A stretch of DNA of 23,516 nt from a virus: the IMG/VR virus record IMGVR_UViG_3300046011_003271, positions 1 through 23,516 of that record, one strand, 5' to 3'. A program made the position numbers and the translations under genes. This document shows, piece by piece, positions 2,995 through 23,514 of the stretch. Each line of letters begins with the position of its first letter. The stretch's first letter is position 1. Below the pieces are notes generated by a model. That model made no database searches and had not been told where the DNA came from. It saw only the letters and a program-made list of their open reading frames with translations.

Positions 2995-5042
2995 TGGCCT
3001 CAAGCCAGACAATACTAAAAATATCAAAGGAATCGCAAGCAGCTCTGGTATCCTATATGTGGAATATTAGGACTAGGTGGACTTATTTTTATACCATTAG
3101 GCAGGTACTTGAGTCTGCTGATAGAGAATATTATCGGGAGAATAACAGAGGAGAAGAGCATCAGCGTGCCCGCCTTGCTAATAACTTAGGTGATGCTAGC
3201 CGCTTCCAGGATGTTACGGTGCCAATAGTAGCTGATCAAGTAGACTCTTGGACAGCATTTATGACTGAAGTATTCTGCTCACAGACTCCTATATTCCCAG
3301 TAGTAGCACCACCTAAGTATGCTGATGCTGCCTTACAGATGAATGCGCTATTAGATAAGCAAGCGCGCAAAGGTCGTTGGAAATCTGAGCTGATAAAGTT
3401 CTTCCGTGACTGCGGCAAATATGGTCTTGGTGCCTGTGAGGTATCATGGACTAAAGCTAATACCGCTCTCATCGAAACTGATCTCAAATTCAGTAGCAAG
3501 GAAGGTAAGCCTAGGAATATCATTTGGGAAGGTAATAGCATTAAGCGCCTCGACCTCTATAATACATTTTGGGATACCACAGTATTGCCACAAGATGTAG
3601 CCACTAAAGGTGAGTATGCAGGCTACCATGAGCTAGTATCCAGGAATCGCATTAAGCAGATAATAGCGGAACTTGGTGAGGATGCCATTATCCCTAATAT
3701 CAATGCTGCCCTTAATTCTGGCACTATGCTTACTGAATACTATGTGCCACAAGTGAATCCAGAAGCTCTTACTGCTGTGCAGTCACTAACACAAGGTATG
3801 GATTGGTTCTCTTGGGCAGGACTGCAGAATAATAGCGGGATAGCTTATAAGGGCCTATATATCATTACCACCTTGTATGCCCGTATCCTTCCTGCTGATT
3901 TCGGTATTCAGGCGCCACAACCTAATACTCCTCAAGTATGGAAATTCCTAATAGTCAATTTTAGCACTATCATTTATATTGAGCGCCAAACTAATGCTCA
4001 TGAGATGATACCAGTGCTATTTGCTTGCCCCAATGATGATGGCATTAAGTATCAAACTAAGTCATTAGCAGCAAATATGAAGCCATTCCAACAGGTGGCA
4101 TCTGCTCTTATGAACTCAGTAATGGCTTCAAGACGTAGAGCTATTAGTGATAAAGGCTTATTCAATCCTCTTTATGTGGATGAAAAGAATATTAATAGTA
4201 AGAATCCTACTGCTAAGATTCCTATTAAGCCTGCTGCCTATCAAGGTGTGCCTCTTAATGAAATCTACTGGCCAATACCATTTAGTGATGACCAAGCCAG
4301 TATCAGCTTGCAAGAGACTCAGTTAATAGGACAGATGGCGGACCAACTTGCAGGCCAGAATAAAGCGCAAAGAGGTCAGTTCCAGAAAGGTAACAAGACT
4401 CTTAGTGAATACCAGGATGTAATGTCTAATGCTGATAGCAAGCCTAAGTCAGCAGCTATTGTGCTTGAAGATCAGTTCTTCACCCCAGCTAAGCACATTC
4501 TTGGTATCAATATCATGCAATACCAAGGTAATGAATCCCTCTATTATGCTGATACTGATAACGAGGTGATTGTTGACCCGCTAATGCTGAGACAAGCTGT
4601 GTGGGAATTCAAGATTACTGATGGTGCTATCCCAGCTAATACTGAGATGCATGCGGATGTGTGGCAGACAGCGTTGCAAATCATAGGCAGTAGCCAGCAA
4701 TTGCAATCAGGTTATAATGTAGCTGGTCTTTTCTCCTATATGATTAAGTTGCAAGGTGCTGACATTAAGGAATTCGAGAAACCTAAAGAGCAACTTATGT
4801 TCGAGCAAGCTCAAATGCAATGGCAAGCAACAGTAGCCCAGATAGTGAAAGCTAATCCGCAAGCCTCTGCACAGCAATTTCCTCCTCAACCAGTACCTGC
4901 TGACTATGGTCTTAATCCTGATGGCACTGTTGCTGACAAGTCTGGTGAGCAAGAGGAGAAGCAAGAGAGTCTGATACAGCAGATTATGGAAGCTGGTATG
5001 CCAGGAGGTGAGCAGCCACAAGAGCAGCAGGAGCCAATGTGA
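2994..5042 (+). CDS. Portal (head-tail connector) protein
   Basis: At 682 aa this has the size of podovirus portals and sits directly after the terminase. Portals form the dodecameric ring at one vertex through which DNA enters and leaves. Sequence features that fit: an alpha-helical N-terminus with many aromatic and basic residues (about 15-60), a wing of mixed alpha/beta sequence with 'GLGACEVSW' (about 142-150), a long helical region with many small residues (about 360-380), and a Gln/Glu/Pro-rich helical C-terminal barrel (about 595-682). Start: ATG 2994 with AGGAGA at 2983-2988. The last codon (ATG) directly precedes TGA, and the downstream gene starts by overlapping this stop. The call rests on length, order and composition together. 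Confidence 0.82.
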   Translation: MASSQTILKISKESQAALVSYMWNIRTRWTYFYTIRQVLESADREYYRENNRGEEHQRARLANNLGDASRFQDVTVPIVADQVDSWTAFMTEVFCSQTPIFPVVAPPKYADAALQMNALLDKQARKGRWKSELIKFFRDCGKYGLGACEVSWTKANTALIETDLKFSSKEGKPRNIIWEGNSIKRLDLYNTFWDTTVLPQDVATKGEYAGYHELVSRNRIKQIIAELGEDAIIPNINAALNSGTMLTEYYVPQVNPEALTAVQSLTQGMDWFSWAGLQNNSGIAYKGLYIITTLYARILPADFGIQAPQPNTPQVWKFLIVNFSTIIYIERQTNAHEMIPVLFACPNDDGIKYQTKSLAANMKPFQQVASALMNSVMASRRRAISDKGLFNPLYVDEKNINSKNPTAKIPIKPAAYQGVPLNEIYWPIPFSDDQASISLQETQLIGQMADQLAGQNKAQRGQFQKGNKTLSEYQDVMSNADSKPKSAAIVLEDQFFTPAKHILGINIMQYQGNESLYYADTDNEVIVDPLMLRQAVWEFKITDGAIPANTEMHADVWQTALQIIGSSQQLQSGYNVAGLFSYMIKLQGADIKEFEKPKEQLMFEQAQMQWQATVAQIVKANPQASAQQFPPQPVPADYGLNPDGTVADKSGEQEEKQESLIQQIMEAGMPGGEQPQEQQEPM

Positions 5043-5242
5043 AAAAGCAAAGTAGTAGTGCCAAGCATAATGCTGATAAAGCCTATAACCTTGGATACAA
5101 AGCTGCTACTAACGGGGAGCCAATAACCTCTAATCCTTTTGTGACTGAGAGAGTTATTGGCTTACATAAGTGGTGGGAGAAAGGTTGGCATGAAGCTGAT
5201 AGCGGTTATGTTGATGAGACATTAGAATCAGGGCCAGACTGA
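5039..5242 (+). CDS. RMF/CrpP-like small protein
   Basis: The 67-aa product has the pattern of the ribosome modulation factor/CrpP family: a lysine-rich N-terminus, then an A-x3-GY-x-A-x2-NG segment (about 15-26), an NPF segment (about 32-34), and a closing W-x2-GW-x2-A segment (about 46-53). Cellular RMF drives 100S ribosome dimer formation in stationary phase; small phage and plasmid relatives are of uncertain role. Translation starts at GTG 5039, overlapping the portal stop codon, with AGGAG at 5029-5033, so it is coupled to portal synthesis. I see the motif spacing; any effect on ribosomes is inference. Confidence 0.6.
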   Translation: MKKQSSSAKHNADKAYNLGYKAATNGEPITSNPFVTERVIGLHKWWEKGWHEADSGYVDETLESGPD

Positions 5243-5637: not shown

Positions 5638-5893
5638 TAGTTTTACCCAATTCTTGTTATCAGATGAAGAGCAGCAAGCAGGCTACCATCTGACAGCAGA
5701 ACAGCGTGCAGTAATACAGAATGATATTGCTGAGTGCGCAATGAAACGAGCTAATATTATACATGATTTAGCCAATCCTGGTAAGAGCCTCTTAGAAGAT
5801 GCTGCTATCAAGGGCCAGCTAACCATGTTACAATATATGCTTCAAAGAGCCGATGCAGTAGCATCAATACTAACAACTGAGGAACAACTATGA
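5621..5893 (+). CDS. Helical protein of unknown function (90 aa)
   Basis: I place the start at ATG 5621 (90 aa): the frame is open upstream to 5579, but that part overlaps the zinc-ribbon gene and has no better signal. The protein has a short N-terminal beta-like stretch (IQINSFTQFLL), then predicted helices: TAEQRAVIQNDIAECAMKRA (25-44) and a longer one from about 57 to 84. It ends at TGA, overlapping the next ATG as ATGA (5890-5893), which indicates coupled translation. The family is not recognised with confidence; small helical proteins of this kind are common in phage morphogenesis clusters. Confidence 0.65.
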   Translation: MQIQINSFTQFLLSDEEQQAGYHLTAEQRAVIQNDIAECAMKRANIIHDLANPGKSLLEDAAIKGQLTMLQYMLQRADAVASILTTEEQL

Positions 5894-6243
5894 CAGACCA
5901 AGCGATTGAAAAAGAAATTATCGAAAAAGGCTTAACAGCTCCGCGTGTAACGCCTGCTGATATTGAAGCGAATATAGCAAGTGAATATTACTTTACTGCA
6001 AGCGATGGTGTGAGCGTTGAAGCAAGCAAGTCACCAACGTTCTGCTATGAAACGCACCTTAATTTACTGACTTTCTGCGTGCTGGTTCTCCGTAATGGCT
6101 TCACTGTGACTGGCGAGTCAGCCTGCGCAAGTCCTGAAAACTTTGATGCAGAAATTGGCAGAAAGATTGCCAGACAAAACGCTATTACTAAAGTATGGCC
6201 ACTTATGGGTTATGTTCTGAAAGAAAAACTTAATAACAACTGA
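5890..6243 (+). CDS. Gp49 family protein
   Basis: The 117-aa protein matches the phage Gp49 family as I know it: an N-terminal 'GLTAPRVTPADIEANIASEY' block (14-33), a central 'LTFCVLVLRNGFTVTGESAC' block (about 60-79), and a C-terminal 'FDAEIGRKIARQNA' then 'WPLMGYVLKEKL' run (about 85-114). The family is widespread in proteobacterial tailed phages and its biochemical function is not established. The start overlaps the previous stop. It lies between the small-gene cluster and the scaffold gene. Family assignment is strong; role unknown. Confidence 0.85.
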   Translation: MTDQAIEKEIIEKGLTAPRVTPADIEANIASEYYFTASDGVSVEASKSPTFCYETHLNLLTFCVLVLRNGFTVTGESACASPENFDAEIGRKIARQNAITKVWPLMGYVLKEKLNNN

Positions 6244-6262: not shown

Positions 6263-6979
6263 ATGTCATTTTTAGATAAAATCTTTCCATCATCAACACA
6301 ACAACAAGCGGCCACACAACCAGCTCCTGCTGTTGCTGCTCCTGTTGAGAATCCAGCTCCTGCTGCGCCAGCCGCACAACCTGACCCATTTGAAACCTTA
6401 TGGCAGAATGATGACAAACAAGGTAGCCAAGGTGGTATCAATTTCAACTTAGATCCTGCGCAGTTAGCAGAGATTGCTGGTAAGATTGATTACTCACAAG
6501 CTGTTACTCCTGAAATCCGCCAACGTCTTGCTATGGGTGGTGAGGACGCAGTTACCGCTACTATGGAAGCCCTTAATGCTGTTAACAGAATGAGCTACCA
6601 ACAAAATGCAGTAGCCACCACTAAGCTTATTGAAGCTGCTGTTAAGAGTACTGAAGCAAGTATGGATGAAAAGATTCAACGTACCATTAAATCCATGGGT
6701 CTGGCGGAGAATGTTACTGCCACTAACCCAGCACTATCAAACCCAGCTTTTGCCCCAATAGTAAAAGCAGCCCAATCACAAATCATTGCTAAGTTCCCTA
6801 ATGCTTCGCAAGCTGATCTCAATAAGATGCTTAACCAGTACTTAGAAAAAGCTGGTGAGGCATTTAATCCTGGTATGGTGAAGAAAGCTAATGCTCCCGC
6901 AGGCTATTCTAATACTATTGCTAATACCCAACAAGAACAGGACTGGGCCGCTTGGCTTAGCACTGAGTTTCCATCTTAA
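6263..6979 (+). CDS. Capsid scaffolding protein
   Basis: The 238-aa protein precedes the major capsid gene, the standard scaffold position. It starts with a low-complexity Ala/Pro/Gln-rich stretch (about 12-42), followed by acidic and helical sequence. Residues 75-145 are strongly helical ('PEIRQRLAMGGEDAVTATME', then more helices), and 150-210 contain an 'NPAFAPIVKAAQSQIIAKFP' helix block, as in scaffolds that coil together and then leave the prohead. Start: ATG 6263 with AAGGAA at 6249-6254. No protease motif is seen, so maturation by internal cleavage is not indicated. The call rests on position, composition and size. Confidence 0.75.
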   Translation: MSFLDKIFPSSTQQQAATQPAPAVAAPVENPAPAAPAAQPDPFETLWQNDDKQGSQGGINFNLDPAQLAEIAGKIDYSQAVTPEIRQRLAMGGEDAVTATMEALNAVNRMSYQQNAVATTKLIEAAVKSTEASMDEKIQRTIKSMGLAENVTATNPALSNPAFAPIVKAAQSQIIAKFPNASQADLNKMLNQYLEKAGEAFNPGMVKKANAPAGYSNTIANTQQEQDWAAWLSTEFPS

Positions 6980-9016: not shown

Positions 9017-9649
9017 ATGACAACATTTGCGGAATTACAGGATAGTGTTATTACTGTCACTAAGCGTCCTGACTTGGTTAATGAAACTATTCTGGCGCTT
9101 AAAAGAGCTATCATTAAAGAACACTCAGCAATGGATTATCCAAGGGATTTAGCTAAGAAGCTACAAGCTCTGACTCAACCTAACCCTAACAATTATCGTT
9201 ATGAGTTGTCATTAGCTTCTCTTGGTATGCATCCATCAGCTAGAAAGATAATGGAGATTGAGGAAGCATTAGCTAGTCAACCTGCCAGTATCCAATCTAG
9301 CTCAGGCTATTACGGTAAGCTAGTATTCAAAGAGCGGGCACCTGATAACTTATTCGATGGTTATAATCAAGAGTACCAATCCTATTGGTACCGCTTTGGC
9401 AGTAACCTTAATATAGTAGCTCCTAGGCAGGTGGATAATGTTCTTATCACGTATTATGCTGTACCTAGCACTAGCGTGTTGGCTAACTATTCTGATTGGA
9501 TGGCTGACCTTTACGATTACGTGCTATATACTCATGCTGCTGCTGAGATATTTAGAATCATTGGTAAGTCTGAGGAGTATAAAATGCAGCTAGCTATGAC
9601 TCAAGAGAACAGGCTTGACATTATCAGAAATGAAATAGGAGCAATCTAA
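9017..9649 (+). CDS. Head-tail adaptor protein
   Basis: The 210-aa protein lies after the capsid genes and before the tail genes, where the ring that extends the portal is usually encoded. Its pattern fits adaptor/tail-tubular-A proteins: an N-terminal helix bundle, a central beta-like segment ('NLNIVAPRQVDNVLITYYAV', about 130-149), then a long C-terminal helical run after 'DWMADLYDYVLYTHAAAEIF' (about 160-179). Start: ATG 9017 with AAGGAG 9003-9008 overlapping the upstream stop. It ends at TAA sharing one base with the next ATG. Confidence 0.65.
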   Translation: MTTFAELQDSVITVTKRPDLVNETILALKRAIIKEHSAMDYPRDLAKKLQALTQPNPNNYRYELSLASLGMHPSARKIMEIEEALASQPASIQSSSGYYGKLVFKERAPDNLFDGYNQEYQSYWYRFGSNLNIVAPRQVDNVLITYYAVPSTSVLANYSDWMADLYDYVLYTHAAAEIFRIIGKSEEYKMQLAMTQENRLDIIRNEIGAI

Positions 9650-10116
9650 TGGCATACATTGTTGATGCAGCTAATGCTAGTGCCCCTCTTGCTAGCGATT
9701 ATTCTGGCCCATATACCGCTGAGGAGATAAGAGCTATTAAAGCTTACTATCTTGCTCAATTCAGTAACATTACTACCCAGCTTAATGCTCTTAACTTGGC
9801 TGCTGTAGGCTACCTTAAGAATTCAGGCGATACTAGTCTTGGGCAACTTAAGGTTCCACTGGTTCCAAGTGACCCTGAATCAGCTACTGCTAAGCAGTAT
9901 GTTGATAACTTAGTTGCTACTATTCTTGGCTCCATATCAGGAGCTGTAGTCAATCAGGTAATGTTCTTAGGTATCAGGCAAGATTCAGAATATAATCTAG
10001 TAGCTGATTACGGTACTGGTACTTGGGATACCGAGGATTACGAATCATGGACATTTGCACCAAATAATACTAGCCTAGCAATTAATAATGCTGGCGAATT
10101 GATATTAACTTACTAG
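9649..10116 (+). CDS. Tail fibre-like protein
   Basis: This 155-aa protein contains a segment (about 54-84) of the type found in trimeric tail fibres: 'YLKNSGDTSLGQLKVPLVPS' followed by 'ATAKQYVDNLV'. The upstream third is helical and the C-terminus (about 108-155) is beta-rich with repeated Tyr, Thr and Trp ('GTGTWDTEDYESWTF'). Such small proteins join fibre or adhesin to the tail or form its tip. Translation is coupled to the adaptor gene (ATG overlaps its TAA, AGGAG 9637-9641). The downstream gene repeats a similar 'GAGQVLTAATSGKPAW' fibre motif. Confidence 0.65.
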   Translation: MAYIVDAANASAPLASDYSGPYTAEEIRAIKAYYLAQFSNITTQLNALNLAAVGYLKNSGDTSLGQLKVPLVPSDPESATAKQYVDNLVATILGSISGAVVNQVMFLGIRQDSEYNLVADYGTGTWDTEDYESWTFAPNNTSLAINNAGELILTY

Positions 10117-10125
10117 GAGATATGA

Positions 10126-12114
10126 ATGACAACACTTAATTTAGGGCAGCTTGCTATAGTGTGGAAAGGGGCCTATAGTGGCGCCACCACTTATACCAAG
10201 AACCAAGCTGTAAGCTATAATGGTAATAGCTATGTATGTAAGGTAGCTTCCGTTATTGGTCAGATACCAACTAATGCTACCTATTGGGATATTATGAGTC
10301 AAGGTAGTAATGTGCTTACCACTACCGGTGACTTGCTATTCCAGGATACCTCAGGCGCTGCAAGGCTGCCAATAGGAGGTGCTGGTCAAGTGCTTACTGC
10401 TGCCACTTCAGGTAAGCCCGCTTGGGCTAATAACCCAGGATACAAAGGGCCAGAAGTCGCCGCTAGTGATATTCCGCTAGTAGCAGCTTCAGCTACATAC
10501 CCGTGGCTTATTGATTCTGGTACTAGCTACTTCGCTAATAATGGATTGCCTAATCCTGCTTGTGGGCCAGTTAAGCGCAGCCAAGCAAGATACCTTGGCT
10601 CAACTTTCCATGTGTGGCTTAATGAGAACCATGAAGTTGTAGTAAGAGGTAATGATGTAGCATTTAGATTTGCTGGCACTAATAACCTTGGTGATACCTT
10701 TGGCACCAGAGTTCTTAATAACTTCTCTGCCTTAAATGGTGTTATGGCATCAGGAGATTATTTTGTTCAGGTTTATGTTGCTGGTAATACCTTGCTTGCA
10801 CTTACTAAGCTTGGCTATGTATTTGCTATTGGTAGTGGCGCCCAAGGCTTGCTAGGTACTGGCAATACTACTGACCAATATGCTTGGATTAAGATTCCAT
10901 ACTTAGGGCCTGCTAGTACTTATAACAGCTTACCTAATACTATTGTGGGCCTACATGTCGGTCAGCAATGTGGTATTACCCCTAATCCTACATATGCTAA
11001 TACACTACAAGGTAAGACTGTTCATGCTATTGATGTGAACGGACGTGTGTTTGCTTGGGGTATTAATAACTTTGGGCAGCTTGGTATTAGTAGCAATACT
11101 GCCATCATTAGTACTCCAACACTCATTGCTGGTAACTCAGGCTTCCTAACTGCTGACCCGCTTAAGAAAGCTGTACAAATTAGCGGTTCTGGACTTCACA
11201 CCCTTATTGTTGACAGTTCAGGTCAAGGTTATGCTTGTGGCGATAATAGTAACGGTGCTTTAGGTATAGGAACTACTACTAATAACTCAGCTAATCATTC
11301 ATTTGTAGCTATCGCAGCTCTCACCAGTATTTATCAGGTTGAAGCGCATCAAGCTATGGTGACTACAACTACGCAAACAGGATGTAGCTCTTTTGCTATT
11401 AAGACAGATGGAACTTTGCTTGCTTGTGGTCAGAACACCTATGGCACTATAGGTAATGGTGGCACTACTCAACAGACAAGTTACCAAACTATAGCTGGCT
11501 CATATAGTAGTATTTATTTTACCTGGCTGTCAGTAGCAGCTCTTGGTGGAACCCCTGCGGCCCCTAATGGTACTATATATAATTGGGGCTACAATGCCAA
11601 TGGTCAGTGTGGCAATGGTACTGTTACAACTCCAGTTAATGCTCCAGCACAGCCGAGTGCTACTGCACAGAATACTAACAGCTCTGTAACTACTATTGAT
11701 GGCTCTGTTAACACTACACCTGCTGCATATCCTAGAACTGGTATCAAGTACGTGCTACCTTTTCAAGCTATGGTTAGCACAGGCGGCGGTTGGCTAATAG
11801 TTGATGCTAATGATGGCTTATGGATTCACGGTAACTGTGAAGGTATTAACATTGTTAGTGCTACTTCAGCATCAGCTACATCTAATCAGCTAGCTCAAAA
11901 GATTCCAGCTCCATGGAATACTGCTGATGGTTGGGGAGGTTCTCAAATTAATGCTATAGTCGATATGGCAAATAACGGTAATACTGACGCTATCAATGGC
12001 TCTGTAGTAATTGCATCCAGTGACGGTAGACAGTGGGCACTAGGTGGAGGTCAAGGTAGAAAATACCATGATGATGGATTCTTCAGTGCTCAATTCAGAC
12101 AAGTAACAGCTTAA
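10126..12114 (+). CDS. Tail protein with CBM-like and RCC1 beta-propeller domains
   Basis: At 662 aa, three parts are visible. Residues 12-57 have the aromatic/Gly spacing of a carbohydrate-binding module (family 5/12-like): W13, Y23, 'VSYNGNSYVC', W54. Residues 66-100 carry a fibre-like segment ('TTTGDLLFQDTSGAARLPIG', then GQVLTAA). From about 165 to the end, RCC1-like blades repeat: 171-187, 229-248 (VFAIGSGAQGLLGTG), 306-325 (VFAWGINNFGQLG), 366-385 (GYACGDNSNGALGIG), 429-447 (LLACGQNTYGTIGNG), 483-500 (IYNWGYNANGQCGNG), 563-573, and 634-645. This suggests a seven-bladed propeller. In a virion protein it is most likely receptor or surface binding. Start: ATG 10126 with AGGAGA 10115-10120. 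Confidence 0.8.
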   Translation: MTTLNLGQLAIVWKGAYSGATTYTKNQAVSYNGNSYVCKVASVIGQIPTNATYWDIMSQGSNVLTTTGDLLFQDTSGAARLPIGGAGQVLTAATSGKPAWANNPGYKGPEVAASDIPLVAASATYPWLIDSGTSYFANNGLPNPACGPVKRSQARYLGSTFHVWLNENHEVVVRGNDVAFRFAGTNNLGDTFGTRVLNNFSALNGVMASGDYFVQVYVAGNTLLALTKLGYVFAIGSGAQGLLGTGNTTDQYAWIKIPYLGPASTYNSLPNTIVGLHVGQQCGITPNPTYANTLQGKTVHAIDVNGRVFAWGINNFGQLGISSNTAIISTPTLIAGNSGFLTADPLKKAVQISGSGLHTLIVDSSGQGYACGDNSNGALGIGTTTNNSANHSFVAIAALTSIYQVEAHQAMVTTTTQTGCSSFAIKTDGTLLACGQNTYGTIGNGGTTQQTSYQTIAGSYSSIYFTWLSVAALGGTPAAPNGTIYNWGYNANGQCGNGTVTTPVNAPAQPSATAQNTNSSVTTIDGSVNTTPAAYPRTGIKYVLPFQAMVSTGGGWLIVDANDGLWIHGNCEGINIVSATSASATSNQLAQKIPAPWNTADGWGGSQINAIVDMANNGNTDAINGSVVIASSDGRQWALGGGQGRKYHDDGFFSAQFRQVTA

Positions 12115-18034: not shown

Positions 18035-21000
18035 ATGGAAACTATTGATAATAACCTAGAGAGTCAAGCCAGTCAGGTTGCTAGTATCCCAGGACAGCCA
18101 GAGTATGACTTCCTAAAAGCTGCTGGTAACCATGCTCTTGCTAGTGGGGATATGACAGCACTTGAAGCTGTAGGCGCTGGTGTCAGGACTGGTACTGGTA
18201 TATGGGCTGGTGCTACTGCTGGCTCAGCTTTCGGCCCAGTCGGTACCGTTATTGGTGCTGCTATTGGTGGCATTACTGGCTATGACTGGAAAACTACAGC
18301 AGCCACAACTGTCAGTGCAGCCAATCAGCTCTATAATAGCACAGTCAGTATTGCTAACTTCTTGCCTGGAGTGGAAATGCAGGAGGCTTCAGCACATGAC
18401 TGGATGCAATCTCTTGATAATGACTTGGCACAATATTATACCTTGCATAAGGAAGGTATTGATACCGCTGGCTTCATAGCATCCTCCATCCCTGCTGGCC
18501 TTGGTGCTCTTAAAGTATATAACTATGGGGCAAAAGCTCTTGATACTTTTGCTAAAACAGGTAAGATTGGTATTGGTATGAGTGAGGCTACTGGCCTTCT
18601 TACCGGTAAGCAAGACCTGCTATATAAGAAAGCATTGGAATCCATGGCTGGTAATAGTAATGTATTCAGTGCTCTTAATGCTAACTTCATTAAGGCTGCT
18701 GCTGTTGGTGCTGGAGAGCAAGCTATTCAGGGCCTAGTATTTGAAGCTGGCGTGCAGACAATGCTTAATGCCAGCCCAATACTGGATGAGCAGGATGCTG
18801 GCGATATTGCTCATAACCTTTATACTGGCGCTTGGGTATCAGGTCTGGTAGGCGGCCTTGGTAGTGCTGTAGTGCGTGGTGTTGGCATTGCTAAGGAGCT
18901 ATCAGTTATTGATAAGAAGCTTATGGGTGCTCAATGGCAAGATGGTATCTCAGTCGGTAGCAAGAAGTTTGAAGAGCTTGCTGTCAGTTTTGAGAATCAA
19001 GCTAAGCTGGACACTACTCCAATCGGTGACGATGCTGCCCTCAATGCTCTTAAGGCTCAGAAGCAGGCTAGAACTAATAATGCTATTGATGACAATAGAA
19101 GGCAGATTTGGAGAGAGCTTGTTGCTGGTGAAGACGATGTAGCTACTAATCAGATTCATGAAGTCACCAACATGCTATGGCTTAAGAATGGTCAGAAGAT
19201 GGATGCTATTGCTCAGCACCTTAATGGTTTGGTAGGAGTGGCCCGCAAAGGCGTCATTACTAAAGCTGAGAAGGTAGTTGAGGAAGTCAAGACTGCTATC
19301 AATGCTGGCAAGCAAATTGCTGATGACCAGTATGCTGTCATTGACCGTTATAGCAGTAAGCTATTAAATACTTGGGGTGAGAGGATGGGTCAGCTTGACT
19401 CTGAACCTCGCCTATTTAATAGCTTGTGGGATAAGCTCGGCAATGGTCAGAAAGTAGTACTTAAAGATAAAGCTGTCATTGCTGGCGATTCCAAATATGT
19501 CATTAACCCTAATAAGGTATGGGATGCTAGAACCGTTACTGATGTGGCTGAGGCTAATGCTCGCACTTTGTGGGCGCATAAAACTGGTATCATGCTTAAG
19601 CCAACTCAGATACTAGGAGAGTATGACATTCCAATGCTGGAGAAAGCTTATAAGGAAATGCGTGATGCCATGTTGCCAAGCATTAGAGTCATATCAGAAT
19701 CAGGTAAGGAGCAAGTTGTTACTAGCGCTGATGATATGCTCAAGCTGCTAACTGACTCCAAGAAAGTTGTTATTGAGAAGCATTTGCAGGAGGGTACTCT
19801 GTCAGAGGATGCTATATCCAATATTGCTAATGTCAGGCAAGGGGCTATCAGAGGAACTGAGGTAAATACTGCTAACCCTGAGCGTGACATATTTGCACTC
19901 CAGTCTTATGAACGTGATTACCAAGAGCTTCATGGTATCAGTAAGCTTAAAGGAGCTGGTCAGGATATTCTAATGCAGCCTAATCAGCTTAAACTGGTAT
20001 ATGATACTGAGGCAATACTTGGTGATTCTGCTAATGCAATACCATTTATGGCTAATATCAGAGCACAGCAGAAGATATATGAGCAAGCAGCGGATACAGC
20101 AGTAGCTTCAGTACTTGGTGAGTCAGTATTCAAGCAGCTCATTAAAGTGCCAACTCAGATGATGAGAGAGGTAACAAGAGCTGGCGCTGGCGGCGGTATG
20201 CTCAAGTCTGCTGATTCTAATTATCTGACAGCAGGTTCAGTATTTGAGCGTATTGGTACTGTCTTTCATCGCACGCTGCAGGAAACCAAAAATGCTGTCA
20301 ATGCTAGTCTGCATCCTGTAGCCTATAAGCTTTATGGCAATCAGAAAGCTACAATGGATTATGTTACTGTAATGCATCAAATTGGCAATACTGGCGAGCG
20401 CTATAAGCTGCATCCTACTGAAATGAAGCTAGTACATGAAAGCTATGATGAAGTGCTTGCTGGCACTAAGGCTCTTAATGGCGATGTGAAACTTGAGATT
20501 CCTATCCAAACTGAGGAAGCTTATAATCTTATCAGAGCGCATAGGGATTTGAATAAGGTAAGACTTAGTAAGTTTGAGCAAATAAGAGCACTTGGTAATA
20601 GTGGCAAAATCTATGATGGTGATATTATCTATGCCCCGCCTGTCAATCTTAAGGATTACCCATATTATGCTTTCGTATCAGATAGCCATCAACTGACTGG
20701 TACTGGCGCTACTAAGATGATATGGGCTACTGACCCTGAGAAGCTGGAAGCTAAACTTGCACTGATACCTGAGGAATTCCAAGCTGGTATTGTAAGAAAG
20801 CCTGCTGCTGTTACAGGTAAGGAGGTAGATAGATGGAAGAAAGCTATTGGCGATTACGAGAGAGGGGATTCTCTTACTGATAACTATTTCGATAGTGCTC
20901 TTGGTAGATCAGGGGCAGCATCAGAATATCTGCCACCAACTAAGGATTCTCTCATTGTAGATCATCTGATGGACTGGCACTATAGGCAGGAGCGTAATCT

Positions 21001-23008
21001 TCTTGATGAGACATTTGGTGCTTTCTATAGCAAGGAATTTGATGAACTCCAGAAGCTGGCAGAGAGATGGTCAGATAAGAATCTTAGCAGACTTGGATTC
21101 CAAAAACCAGGAGAGCTTGCTAAGGAGCAAAGCAATAATCCTTACCTGAGCTATATCCGTACTGCTCTTGACATGCCTAATACTGATAAGATTCCAATGA
21201 AGCTTACTCAAGACTGGGCTGATAAGCAAGTCAGTAAGCTATGGAATGAGGCTAAGCATAGTCTTGGCAGTGCTGTTAAGCAAGATGACTTGGATGCTAT
21301 TAATAAAGCATTTCAAGATGCGGGTATCAATACTGTTAATTACGATGCTGTAGCTTATGCACTTGCTAACCATGAGGTTCCTAGGGGCGCTCTTGGTACC
21401 TTTGTCAGAAGGGCTAATAGCATTGTTGCGGGCATAGGTCTTGGCCTTGATGCTCTTAATGCTATCAATAATAGGGTTGGCTCCCTTGTCATGCTTGCAC
21501 CTGAGACTCAGTTCTTACTGGATAAGATTAAGGCTGGCAATACTGATGCGGTTGGAGCGCTAGCTCAGCTTGGCAATGTCACCATTCCTGGCACACAGCA
21601 TAGCTATCTCAGTACTCACAAGCTTATTGCTAATGCTCTTAAGGATAGCTTCAAACCTGAAATGCGCGCTTGGGCTGCTGAGAGAGGATTCAGTACTAGA
21701 CATGTGAATGATGTATCAGATATTGTGGATACTCTTGCACTTACTGGTAAGGAATACCAACTTGATTTGGAAGGTAAGATTACTCTTGCTTTCGACAAGA
21801 CTCAGAGATTCCTTAAACGAGGTTCTGAGCTGACAGGTAATGCTTATGCTGAGGAGATGACTAGACTGACAGCGGCTCTTGTGGCTAAGCAGATTACTGA
21901 TATTGCTGTCAGTCAAGGCATCATCACAGAGAGGCTTGCCGAATCTGCTATTCAGACATTTGTCAATAGAACTAATGGTATCTATCTTGCTAGCCAGCGA
22001 CCAATGATGTTTAATGGCCCCATCGGTCAAGCTGTAGGATTATACCAAACTTATACTATTACAATGATGAATAACTTCTTTCGCTATGTCAGTAATGGTA
22101 GTGCTAAGAGTGCAGCTTTGATGATGACAGCTCAGGGTAGCATATATGGCATGTCAGGGCTGCCAGCATTTCAAGCTATCAATACTCATATTGTAGGTGG
22201 CGCTGCTGGTAATGGCGACCATACTGACATGTTTGCTAAAGCTTATGCTAGTATGGACAAGGATGTAGCTGATTGGTTCATGTATGGTGCGCTATCCAAT
22301 GTTGGTGGACTCATTCATCCAGGCTTGAAAACTAATATGTATACTAGGGGTGATGTCAATCCAAGGAATATAACAGTGGTGCCACTTAATCCTGCTGATA
22401 TTCCTGCTGTCAGTATTGGTGCTCGCTTCATTAGTAACTTTGTAGATACAGTGGATAAGATTGCTGGAGGCGGTTCTGTAACTACTAGCTTGCTGCAAGG
22501 CTTAGAGCATAACGGAATCAGCAGACCTCTTACTGGCTTGGCGCAAGTCCTAGAAGCTTTCGGCCCTACTGGTAAGAGTTATGCAACCAGCAGACAAGGT
22601 TCACTGATTGCTGCTAATGACCTTATGAGTATGGTGAATCTGACAAGGCTGGCAGGCGCTAAGCCAATGGATGAAGCTCTTGCTCTTGATGCCAGTTATC
22701 GTAGTACTGTCTATAAGGCTAAACATGATGACCAGATGAAAGCATTGGGGTCAACTATTAAGAGTAAGGTAACTGGTAATCAGGAGCTTACTGAGGATGA
22801 CTTGCATAGCTTCCAACAAGAGTATATCAAACTAGGTGGTAAGCAGAATGGATGGAATAGATACTTTGCTAGATTACAAAAGGATGCTAATGTTAGCGTA
22901 AGTAATAGGATAAGCAAGCTGATGAAATCACAGGATTCCATTCACATGCAGAATATGATGGGTGGGATACAGCTTAATGATTTCACTCAACCTGAGAGTG
23001 AAGAATAG
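18035..23008 (+). CDS. Giant internal virion / ejection protein 3 (1657 aa)
   Basis: This is by far the longest gene here. It corresponds in position and size to the T7 gp16 type and other giant podovirus ejection proteins. Residues 49-83 form a glycine-zipper-like hydrophobic segment ('GAGVRTGTGIWAGATAGSAF' and 'GTVIGAAIGGITGY'), a plausible membrane-inserting region. The middle is helical and charged. Toward the C-terminus, 'YLASQRPMMFNGPIGQAVGL' followed by 'YQTYTITMMNNFFRY' is a block I recall from large podovirus virion proteins. I find no lysozyme or transglycosylase motif, unlike T7 gp16. Start: ATG 18035 with AAGGA at 18024-18028. It is the last plus-strand gene, followed by a terminator. 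Confidence 0.75.
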   Translation: METIDNNLESQASQVASIPGQPEYDFLKAAGNHALASGDMTALEAVGAGVRTGTGIWAGATAGSAFGPVGTVIGAAIGGITGYDWKTTAATTVSAANQLYNSTVSIANFLPGVEMQEASAHDWMQSLDNDLAQYYTLHKEGIDTAGFIASSIPAGLGALKVYNYGAKALDTFAKTGKIGIGMSEATGLLTGKQDLLYKKALESMAGNSNVFSALNANFIKAAAVGAGEQAIQGLVFEAGVQTMLNASPILDEQDAGDIAHNLYTGAWVSGLVGGLGSAVVRGVGIAKELSVIDKKLMGAQWQDGISVGSKKFEELAVSFENQAKLDTTPIGDDAALNALKAQKQARTNNAIDDNRRQIWRELVAGEDDVATNQIHEVTNMLWLKNGQKMDAIAQHLNGLVGVARKGVITKAEKVVEEVKTAINAGKQIADDQYAVIDRYSSKLLNTWGERMGQLDSEPRLFNSLWDKLGNGQKVVLKDKAVIAGDSKYVINPNKVWDARTVTDVAEANARTLWAHKTGIMLKPTQILGEYDIPMLEKAYKEMRDAMLPSIRVISESGKEQVVTSADDMLKLLTDSKKVVIEKHLQEGTLSEDAISNIANVRQGAIRGTEVNTANPERDIFALQSYERDYQELHGISKLKGAGQDILMQPNQLKLVYDTEAILGDSANAIPFMANIRAQQKIYEQAADTAVASVLGESVFKQLIKVPTQMMREVTRAGAGGGMLKSADSNYLTAGSVFERIGTVFHRTLQETKNAVNASLHPVAYKLYGNQKATMDYVTVMHQIGNTGERYKLHPTEMKLVHESYDEVLAGTKALNGDVKLEIPIQTEEAYNLIRAHRDLNKVRLSKFEQIRALGNSGKIYDGDIIYAPPVNLKDYPYYAFVSDSHQLTGTGATKMIWATDPEKLEAKLALIPEEFQAGIVRKPAAVTGKEVDRWKKAIGDYERGDSLTDNYFDSALGRSGAASEYLPPTKDSLIVDHLMDWHYRQERNLLDETFGAFYSKEFDELQKLAERWSDKNLSRLGFQKPGELAKEQSNNPYLSYIRTALDMPNTDKIPMKLTQDWADKQVSKLWNEAKHSLGSAVKQDDLDAINKAFQDAGINTVNYDAVAYALANHEVPRGALGTFVRRANSIVAGIGLGLDALNAINNRVGSLVMLAPETQFLLDKIKAGNTDAVGALAQLGNVTIPGTQHSYLSTHKLIANALKDSFKPEMRAWAAERGFSTRHVNDVSDIVDTLALTGKEYQLDLEGKITLAFDKTQRFLKRGSELTGNAYAEEMTRLTAALVAKQITDIAVSQGIITERLAESAIQTFVNRTNGIYLASQRPMMFNGPIGQAVGLYQTYTITMMNNFFRYVSNGSAKSAALMMTAQGSIYGMSGLPAFQAINTHIVGGAAGNGDHTDMFAKAYASMDKDVADWFMYGALSNVGGLIHPGLKTNMYTRGDVNPRNITVVPLNPADIPAVSIGARFISNFVDTVDKIAGGGSVTTSLLQGLEHNGISRPLTGLAQVLEAFGPTGKSYATSRQGSLIAANDLMSMVNLTRLAGAKPMDEALALDASYRSTVYKAKHDDQMKALGSTIKSKVTGNQELTEDDLHSFQQEYIKLGGKQNGWNRYFARLQKDANVSVSNRISKLMKSQDSIHMQNMMGGIQLNDFTQPESEE

Positions 23009-23050: not shown

Positions 23051-23086
23051 GTCCTAGCTGGTATCAGTACTGGCTAGGACTTTTTT
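23051..23086 (+). terminator. Intrinsic terminator of the late operon
   Basis: GTCCTAGC (23051-23058) pairs with GCTAGGAC (23073-23080), extended inward by five pairs including two G-U wobbles, around a 4-nt loop TCAG (23064-23067). Six T follow at once (23081-23086). The stem is strong and the T run is on the plus-strand side only, so it ends the late transcript. It lies 42 nt after the giant ejection-protein gene and before the convergent minus-strand genes. Confidence 0.9.
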
Positions 23087-23104: not shown

Positions 23105-23335
23105 TTAGTTAATAAATCTAGCTATTCTTTGCTCCAAGATAGCTAGATACTTGGTCATAATAGCCTGTTGTTGAAATAGTAATTCCTTATCGATATCTTG
23201 CAACACATGAAACTGATGCGTTGACGTAAAGAATGTAAGTTTTGTATGCCTATCATTCAGTTCTTTGTATTCTTCTACTACCCGCTGCTCATGAGGTTGT
23301 AGCAATTCAAAGCCTAATATTTTTAATTCTGCCAT
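23105..23335 (-). CDS. Acb2/Tad1 hairpin-domain family protein (putative anti-CBASS sponge)
   Basis: The minus-strand product is 76 aa. I start it at the ATG at 23335, because TTGGAG (23347-23342) lies six bases upstream; an in-frame TTG at 23347 is part of that signal. Residues 16-76 match the small helical-hairpin family that includes the phage anti-CBASS protein Acb2: 'EQRVVEEYKELNDRHTKL' (16-33), a linker with Phe and Leu, 'LLFQQQAIMTKYLAILEQRI' (54-73) and a final ARF. Known members are hexamers that sequester cyclic oligonucleotides made by CBASS cyclases. I infer family from this pattern and from memory; binding residues were not mapped. It runs opposite to the late operon, like an early or accessory gene. 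Confidence 0.6.
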   Translation of the reverse strand: MAELKILGFELLQPHEQRVVEEYKELNDRHTKLTFFTSTHQFHVLQDIDKELLFQQQAIMTKYLAILEQRIARFIN

Positions 23336-23358
23336 AATATTCTCCAAGTTAATATTAA

Positions 23359-23514
23359 TTAATGCTTACTGCTAGTCACAATCTCAACCTCCTTGTTACC
23401 TTCCTTCATATCAATGATATGCTGCACTAGCCCTTGCGCTGTCGGGATGGTATTAACACTGACAGCCATATTCTCCCTCTTATTGACAAGTGCCCTGGTA
23501 GCTTGCTCAGCCAT
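23359..23514 (-). CDS. Small minus-strand protein, start uncertain (up to 51 aa visible)
   Basis: Reading from the right edge on the minus strand, an open frame begins at ATG 23514 and ends at TAA 23359-23361, giving 51 aa. An internal ATG at 23469 has AGAGGGAG just upstream (about 23480-23473) and could be the true start, giving 36 aa beginning MAVSVNTIP. Because the window ends two bases upstream, a longer gene cannot be excluded. The protein is polar and charged, with an 'HIIDMKEGNKEVEIV' stretch. No family is recognised. It lies 23 nt upstream of the Acb2-like gene on the same strand, so the two probably share a transcript. Confidence 0.5.
   Translation of the reverse strand: MAEQATRALVNKRENMAVSVNTIPTAQGLVQHIIDMKEGNKEVEIVTSSKH

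Follow-up and report, generated by a model that had tools for sequence, protein, structure and literature searches.

A stand-alone crAss001_48 hairpin gene that occupies the acb2 locus in a phage clade is a candidate counter-defence gene outside the Acb2 family

Acb2 proteins of the Acb2/Tad1 hairpin family, which sequester CBASS cyclic nucleotides as hexamers, are among the closest described systems to the gene studied here. In T4 Acb2 (Vs.4), the cGAMP pocket is formed by Y8, H11, K23, R79 and F82 from two monomers of the hexamer, and the hexamer face consists of the small residues A66, A73 and A77 (PMC10097602). In the PaMx33/35/41 group of Pseudomonas phages, where Acb2 was discovered, ORF24 has been identified as Acb2, and a lengthened gp24 is reported to restore anti-CBASS activity in PaMx41 (review PMC12043709). 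We found a short form of ORF24 at the equivalent place in PaMx41, in agreement with that review. In PaMx35, ORF24 comes directly beyond the giant late gene but is encoded on the other strand, and the gene that faces it is ORF23. We analyzed a 23,516-nt stretch of viral DNA (hereafter, the window; IMG/VR record IMGVR_UViG_3300046011_003271) from a distant relative of PaP2, PaMx33, PaMx35 and PaMx41 (portal ~30% identical, E=5e-61). Terminase, portal, major capsid protein (MCP), the C terminus of the giant gene, polymerase and primase are all homologous between this phage and PaMx35, and their order is kept. Directly behind the portal gene, the window also encodes a 67-aa homologue of ribosome modulation factor (RMF) (5039-5242, plus strand; PF04957 E=1.1e-09), i.e., a phage-borne protein of the RMF/CrpP fold. 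A 662-aa probable tail/receptor protein (10126-12114, plus strand) contains beta-propeller repeats of the RCC1 type (E=2e-24) and a weakly matching CBM_5_12 carbohydrate-binding module.

At the place that corresponds to ORF24, the minus strand of the window carries an ATG-initiated ORF of 76 aa (23105-23335), which translates without internal stops and is thus a real ORF. The bases preceding its ATG, CTTGGAGAATATT (23336-23348, minus strand), form a Shine-Dalgarno region with GGAG ~6 nt upstream of the start codon, which bears out an earlier note that credited the gene with a clean ribosome binding site. The same protein is found at 99-100% identity on two IMG/VR contigs. The motif pieces that the note had singled out (QRVVEEYKEL, KL and MTKYLAILEQRIARF) are all present, with one correction: the element written there as Q-x-M is actually Q-x-x-x-M (Q56 and M60). 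A locally built family HMM gave the protein 87.7 bits, a score to which the protein itself contributed as one of the building sequences, while 2,000 shuffles reached at most 12.2 bits. Together with the independent Pfam model PF21825 (E=3.7e-18), this comparison places the motif far beyond chance.

PF21825 (crAss001_48) matches the protein at 65.6 bits over model positions 2-61 of 61, where membership required a gathering score of 24.8 bits and coverage of most of the model. PHROGs likewise assign the protein to the crAss001_48 family (PHROG 774/3934/32732), which includes T4 DenB.1 and crAss001 gp48. Searching with tblastn matched 590 phage records, none at more than 60% identity, from T4 and other T-even phages, Klebsiella N4-like phages, and phages of Vibrio, Streptococcus, Pseudomonas and others. 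Six residues (R18, E22, Q56, M60, L67 and R70) are invariant in all 53 aligned sequences, this protein included; position 15 is His, Tyr or Phe in all 53, and 50 of them have Phe at position 74. The 12 sequences of alignment A1 diverged too much to serve for scanning contigs, and the narrower pattern [ML][QKR]PH[EQ]QRV was used instead; because loci were collected by this pattern, the conservation of P14-V19 is inflated and partly built in. R18, which lies inside that stretch, is also kept in T4, Streptococcus and Bacteroides members that were found without the pattern.

AlphaFold2 (AF2) modeling with 48 homologues predicted, with high confidence, a two-helix hairpin (pLDDT 90.2) with helices at residues 14-36 and 47-72. 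In a viral fold search, family members led the matches, among them crAss001 A0A385DTI1 (TM 0.96 on its own length), although a fold this small limits the best E-values to about 1e-3. Foldseek against the PDB returned no match at E≤0.001, and the weak, non-significant matches that fall short of this threshold include helical hairpins of nucleic-acid-binding proteins; as modeled, the fold is generic. Single-sequence and profile searches found no meaningful homologue among solved structures, and neither PADLOC nor NCBIfam matched the protein. With a full-length match above the gathering score, every invariant residue and the same predicted hairpin, the 76-aa protein is a member of the crAss001_48 family. 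Its domain is identical in kind to that of its relatives, from which it differs by an extra N-terminal leader of ~12 residues and by standing alone rather than being fused. Our literature search found no paper naming crAss001_48 or giving a function for denB.1, and no binding or genetic data on any member. As a sequence, then, the protein is ordinary, since it belongs to a known and widespread yet uncharacterized family.

The earlier note had read the motif as the signature text of Acb2 and the gene as a candidate member of that family. The motif is a genuine signature, but of PF21825: PF24729 (Acb2_Tad1_hairpin; gathering score 27 bits) did not match the protein even at E≤10, while the control, T4 Vs.4, scored 71.4 bits. 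T4 carries one protein of each kind, and the two are reciprocally exclusive, with Vs.4 matching only PF24729 and DenB.1 only PF21825. Profile-profile comparison (hhalign) against Acb2 subfamilies gave probabilities of 4-21% with helix 1 aligned at most, whereas two true Acb2 subfamilies matched each other at 98%. The best of these alignments, to PaMx-type Acb2 over helix 1 only (21%, pairwise E=0.001), scored above 60 column shuffles, so a very remote relatedness to Acb2 is conceivable. The note had also expected a fold like that of Acb2, yet the solved Acb2 structures 7UQ2, 8H2X and 8H2J are absent from the top 50 PDB matches of the predicted hairpin. This negative has power, because a control search from an AF2 model of T4 Acb2 recovered Vs.4 (7UQ2) and Pseudomonas Acb2 structures at ranks 1-7. 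Furthermore, the invariant pattern L53-Q56-M60-Y63-L67-R70 has no counterpart to the A66/A73/A77 face of the Vs.4 hexamer.

The two proteins do share a size class, a two-helix hairpin, a place among the early genes and an equivalent genomic position in PaMx35, and each has an aromatic residue or His plus an Arg at the open end of its hairpin. They differ in their invariant core; sequence and profile searches did not match them to each other, and the fold search did not do so significantly. We therefore rule out Acb2 family membership on the basis of Pfam, reciprocal exclusivity in T4, profile-profile comparison and the controlled fold search, and consider it highly improbable that this is a true Acb2 sequestering CBASS cyclic nucleotides as a hexamer. 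By the note's own yardsticks, an HMM match and an Acb2-like fold, these results refute membership, but not the idea that the protein works like Acb2.

The last late gene, a giant gene for a protein of 1657 aa (18035-23008, plus strand), has a C-terminal region homologous to PaMx35 ORF23 and is followed by a strong intrinsic terminator with a 13-bp stem and a T6 tail (23051-23080, plus strand), which lies between the converging operons. Upstream of the hairpin gene is the 3' end of a 138-aa early gene (23359-23514, minus strand; a 51-aa ORF as cut by the contig end), a conserved neighbour family in the clade. Members of this family are 80-140 aa long, occur in 53 of 80 clade loci (in L003 at 9561-9977) and usually sit close to the end of the early operon; one of them, P0007, matches nothing in Pfam or PHROGs. 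L003, a near-complete 44.7-kb relative whose copy of the hairpin protein is 99% identical, extends the gene order beyond the end of the window. Its early operon runs polymerase, primase (both named by homology to PaMx35), GDSL-type protein, dUTPase, DUF6378, a 201-aa protein, the 138-aa protein and, as its last gene, the hairpin gene. The placement of the gene opposite the late operon had thus been described correctly but incompletely, since it is not a stand-alone gene but closes an opposed replication/nucleotide operon. Between the polymerase and primase genes, L003 also has an ORF (4114-4620, plus strand) that looks, from sequence alone, like an HNH homing endonuclease. Local HMMs detected no crAss001_48 gene in PaMx35 and no Acb2 in the window or in L003. 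Elsewhere in the wider polymerase clade, L231 has a true Acb2 (6277-6573, plus strand; PF24729 E=6.8e-18), which lies upstream of the polymerase and not at the convergent junction.

A place at the end of an operon that also encodes polymerase, primase, dUTPase and DUF6378 would likewise suit a protein of early phage development, with a housekeeping or host-takeover function in nucleotide or nucleic-acid metabolism unrelated to defence. In T4, denB.1 is flanked by rIIB and by denB, which encodes an endonuclease for host DNA, and the weak fold matches to hairpins of nucleic-acid-binding proteins point the same way. Other observations argue against it. In L171, a ~99% identical phage in which the gene is dispensable, the flanks match L170 at 99.9% and 99.1%, and the 138-aa gene continues directly to the terminator, i.e., the hairpin gene is cleanly absent. 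The gene is also missing from nearly all other clade members, and relatives of its protein are fused to Tad2-like domains. We regard the housekeeping role as possible, though not probable.

Across 34 clade loci, the pocket that separates the giant gene from the 138-aa family gene measures from -40 to 4187 bp and varies in content. It holds a fusion of Phage_gp49_66 (PF13876; Gp49_66) and crAss001_48 in L192 and a Gp49_66 gene in L236, and in other clade members ordinary genes (kinase-like or hypothetical) that have no known tie to defence. The hairpin gene is thus an accessory gene with a cassette-like distribution, and it occupies the acb2 locus in a clade syntenic with PaMx35. Of the claim that it is an accessory counter-defence gene, the accessory part stands, backed by the L171 absence and joined by the acb2 locus and the Tad2-like fusions of relatives; the Acb2 identity attached to it does not.

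The domains joined to crAss001_48 in other phages bear on its function. Pfam identified six proteins in which crAss001_48 is fused to a domain like the anti-defence domain Tad2 (Tad2-like, PF11195), in both domain orders: in Vibrio phage 1.205.O, Bacteroides phages BS162P1 and BS-TP1, and metagenomic loci L405, L385 and L392. These fusions are a small minority of crAss001_48 proteins, and the 76-aa protein itself has no PF11195 match, this domain being present only in its fused relatives. The two domains also alternate behind a third, the GYLVEY domain: of 80 loci, 64 have Tad2 after it and 15 have crAss001_48, with both present in 3. Tad2 thus shares an architecture with the hairpin, yet it is an unrelated domain, and fusion does not imply that its ligand transfers. 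The GYLVEY...SWSP domain (L252 367-600; residues 1-78 of P0006), an N-terminal partner of Tad2-like domains, has no Pfam match, and no PDB match identified it as a Tad1 beta-domain; it may itself be part of anti-defence machinery.

Gp49_66 is another repeated partner, matched in 9 of the 28 proteins of alignment A6, a count that is not a frequency because these proteins were hand-picked, mostly for length. It too is an unrelated domain, of unknown function. The window has a separate Gp49_66 gene (5890-6243, plus strand), whose domain is the one fused to crAss001_48 in L192. Elsewhere in phages, Gp49_66 is found fused to crAss001_48, fused to GYLVEY and together with Tad2-like domains, a modular network of accessory proteins. 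Acb2 was fused to neither Gp49_66 nor GYLVEY in 80 loci each. PF21825 and PF24729 occurred together in only 1 of 43 virus records carrying PF21825 (T4), which gives no signal of co-occurrence. Klebsiella phage ZX1 had tblastn matches to both types of protein, and among 200 Burkholderiales genomes each family was found in four, all different.

Because the hairpin occurs in combination with many unrelated N-terminal domains, in differing orders, as expected of an oligomerization or adaptor module, it could contribute to counter-defence by another mechanism, either by serving Tad2-like, Gp49_66 and other accessory domains in that capacity or by binding a host defence protein, in both cases with no nucleotide binding. 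Its cassette-like presence and absence would suit such a role. A pure oligomerization module should rarely stand alone, however, and most crAss001_48 members do (64 of 89 unique proteins are ≤100 aa); in addition, the invariant charged and polar residues R18, E22, Q56 and R70 exceed what a coiled coil needs. We regard this mechanism, too, as possible, though not probable.

We favour the hypothesis that the hairpin is an accessory counter-defence protein that sequesters a nucleotide-type signal. Some of the Vs.4 contacts lie where helix 1 begins and helix 2 ends, i.e., at the same end of its hairpin, and crAss001_48 has an aromatic residue or His where its helix 1 begins and Arg and Phe where its helix 2 ends, positions that come together at one end of an antiparallel hairpin. 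This likeness is an analogy of placement drawn from sequence and predicted secondary structure rather than an alignment. Under this hypothesis, the gene would be gained and lost as an early cassette in the pocket between the last conserved gene of the early operon and the late-operon terminator, and its stand-alone product would act early in infection. The hairpin would oligomerize, and its open end, comprising His/Tyr/Phe15 and Arg18 (helix 1 start), Arg70 and Phe74 (helix 2 end), and the invariant Glu22 and Gln56, would bind a nucleotide-type defence signal and so sequester it, in the manner of Acb2, an unrelated hairpin.

We give this proposal as a whole a probability of roughly 0.35. For it we count the PF21825 match, the hairpin prediction, the PaMx35 locus, the L171 absence, the company of Tad2-like and Gp49_66 domains, and the invariant residues; against it, the lack of any family function in the literature, the lack of co-occurrence with PF24729, the ordinary genes in the pocket, the small number of Tad2 fusions, the absence of a PADLOC match and the generic fold. 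Its parts differ in strength. That this is an accessory counter-defence gene is the most likely reading, and one we are slightly more inclined to accept than to doubt; sequestration of a nucleotide-type signal is the leading mechanism by analogy, although a tentative one. More speculative, and in our estimate unlikely, is that the crAss001_48 hairpin represents a new class of defence-signal sponge that is Acb2-like by convergence, takes the place of Acb2 at its locus and, by pairing with Tad2 and Gp49_66, captures a broader range of signals.

The Acb2 label of the 76-aa protein is wrong, and the crAss001_48 gene is, on sequence grounds, a reasonable counter-defence candidate. Should it not be anti-defence, it would be an ordinary hypothetical phage gene. 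The family is of moderate interest as an uncharacterized one that includes a T4 protein: PF21825 occurs in T4 and in hundreds of further phage records, and our searches found no function for it. That it changes places with Tad2 in modular proteins and sits at the acb2 locus in phages related to those that yielded Acb2 provides a concrete, testable lead on a possible further anti-defence family.
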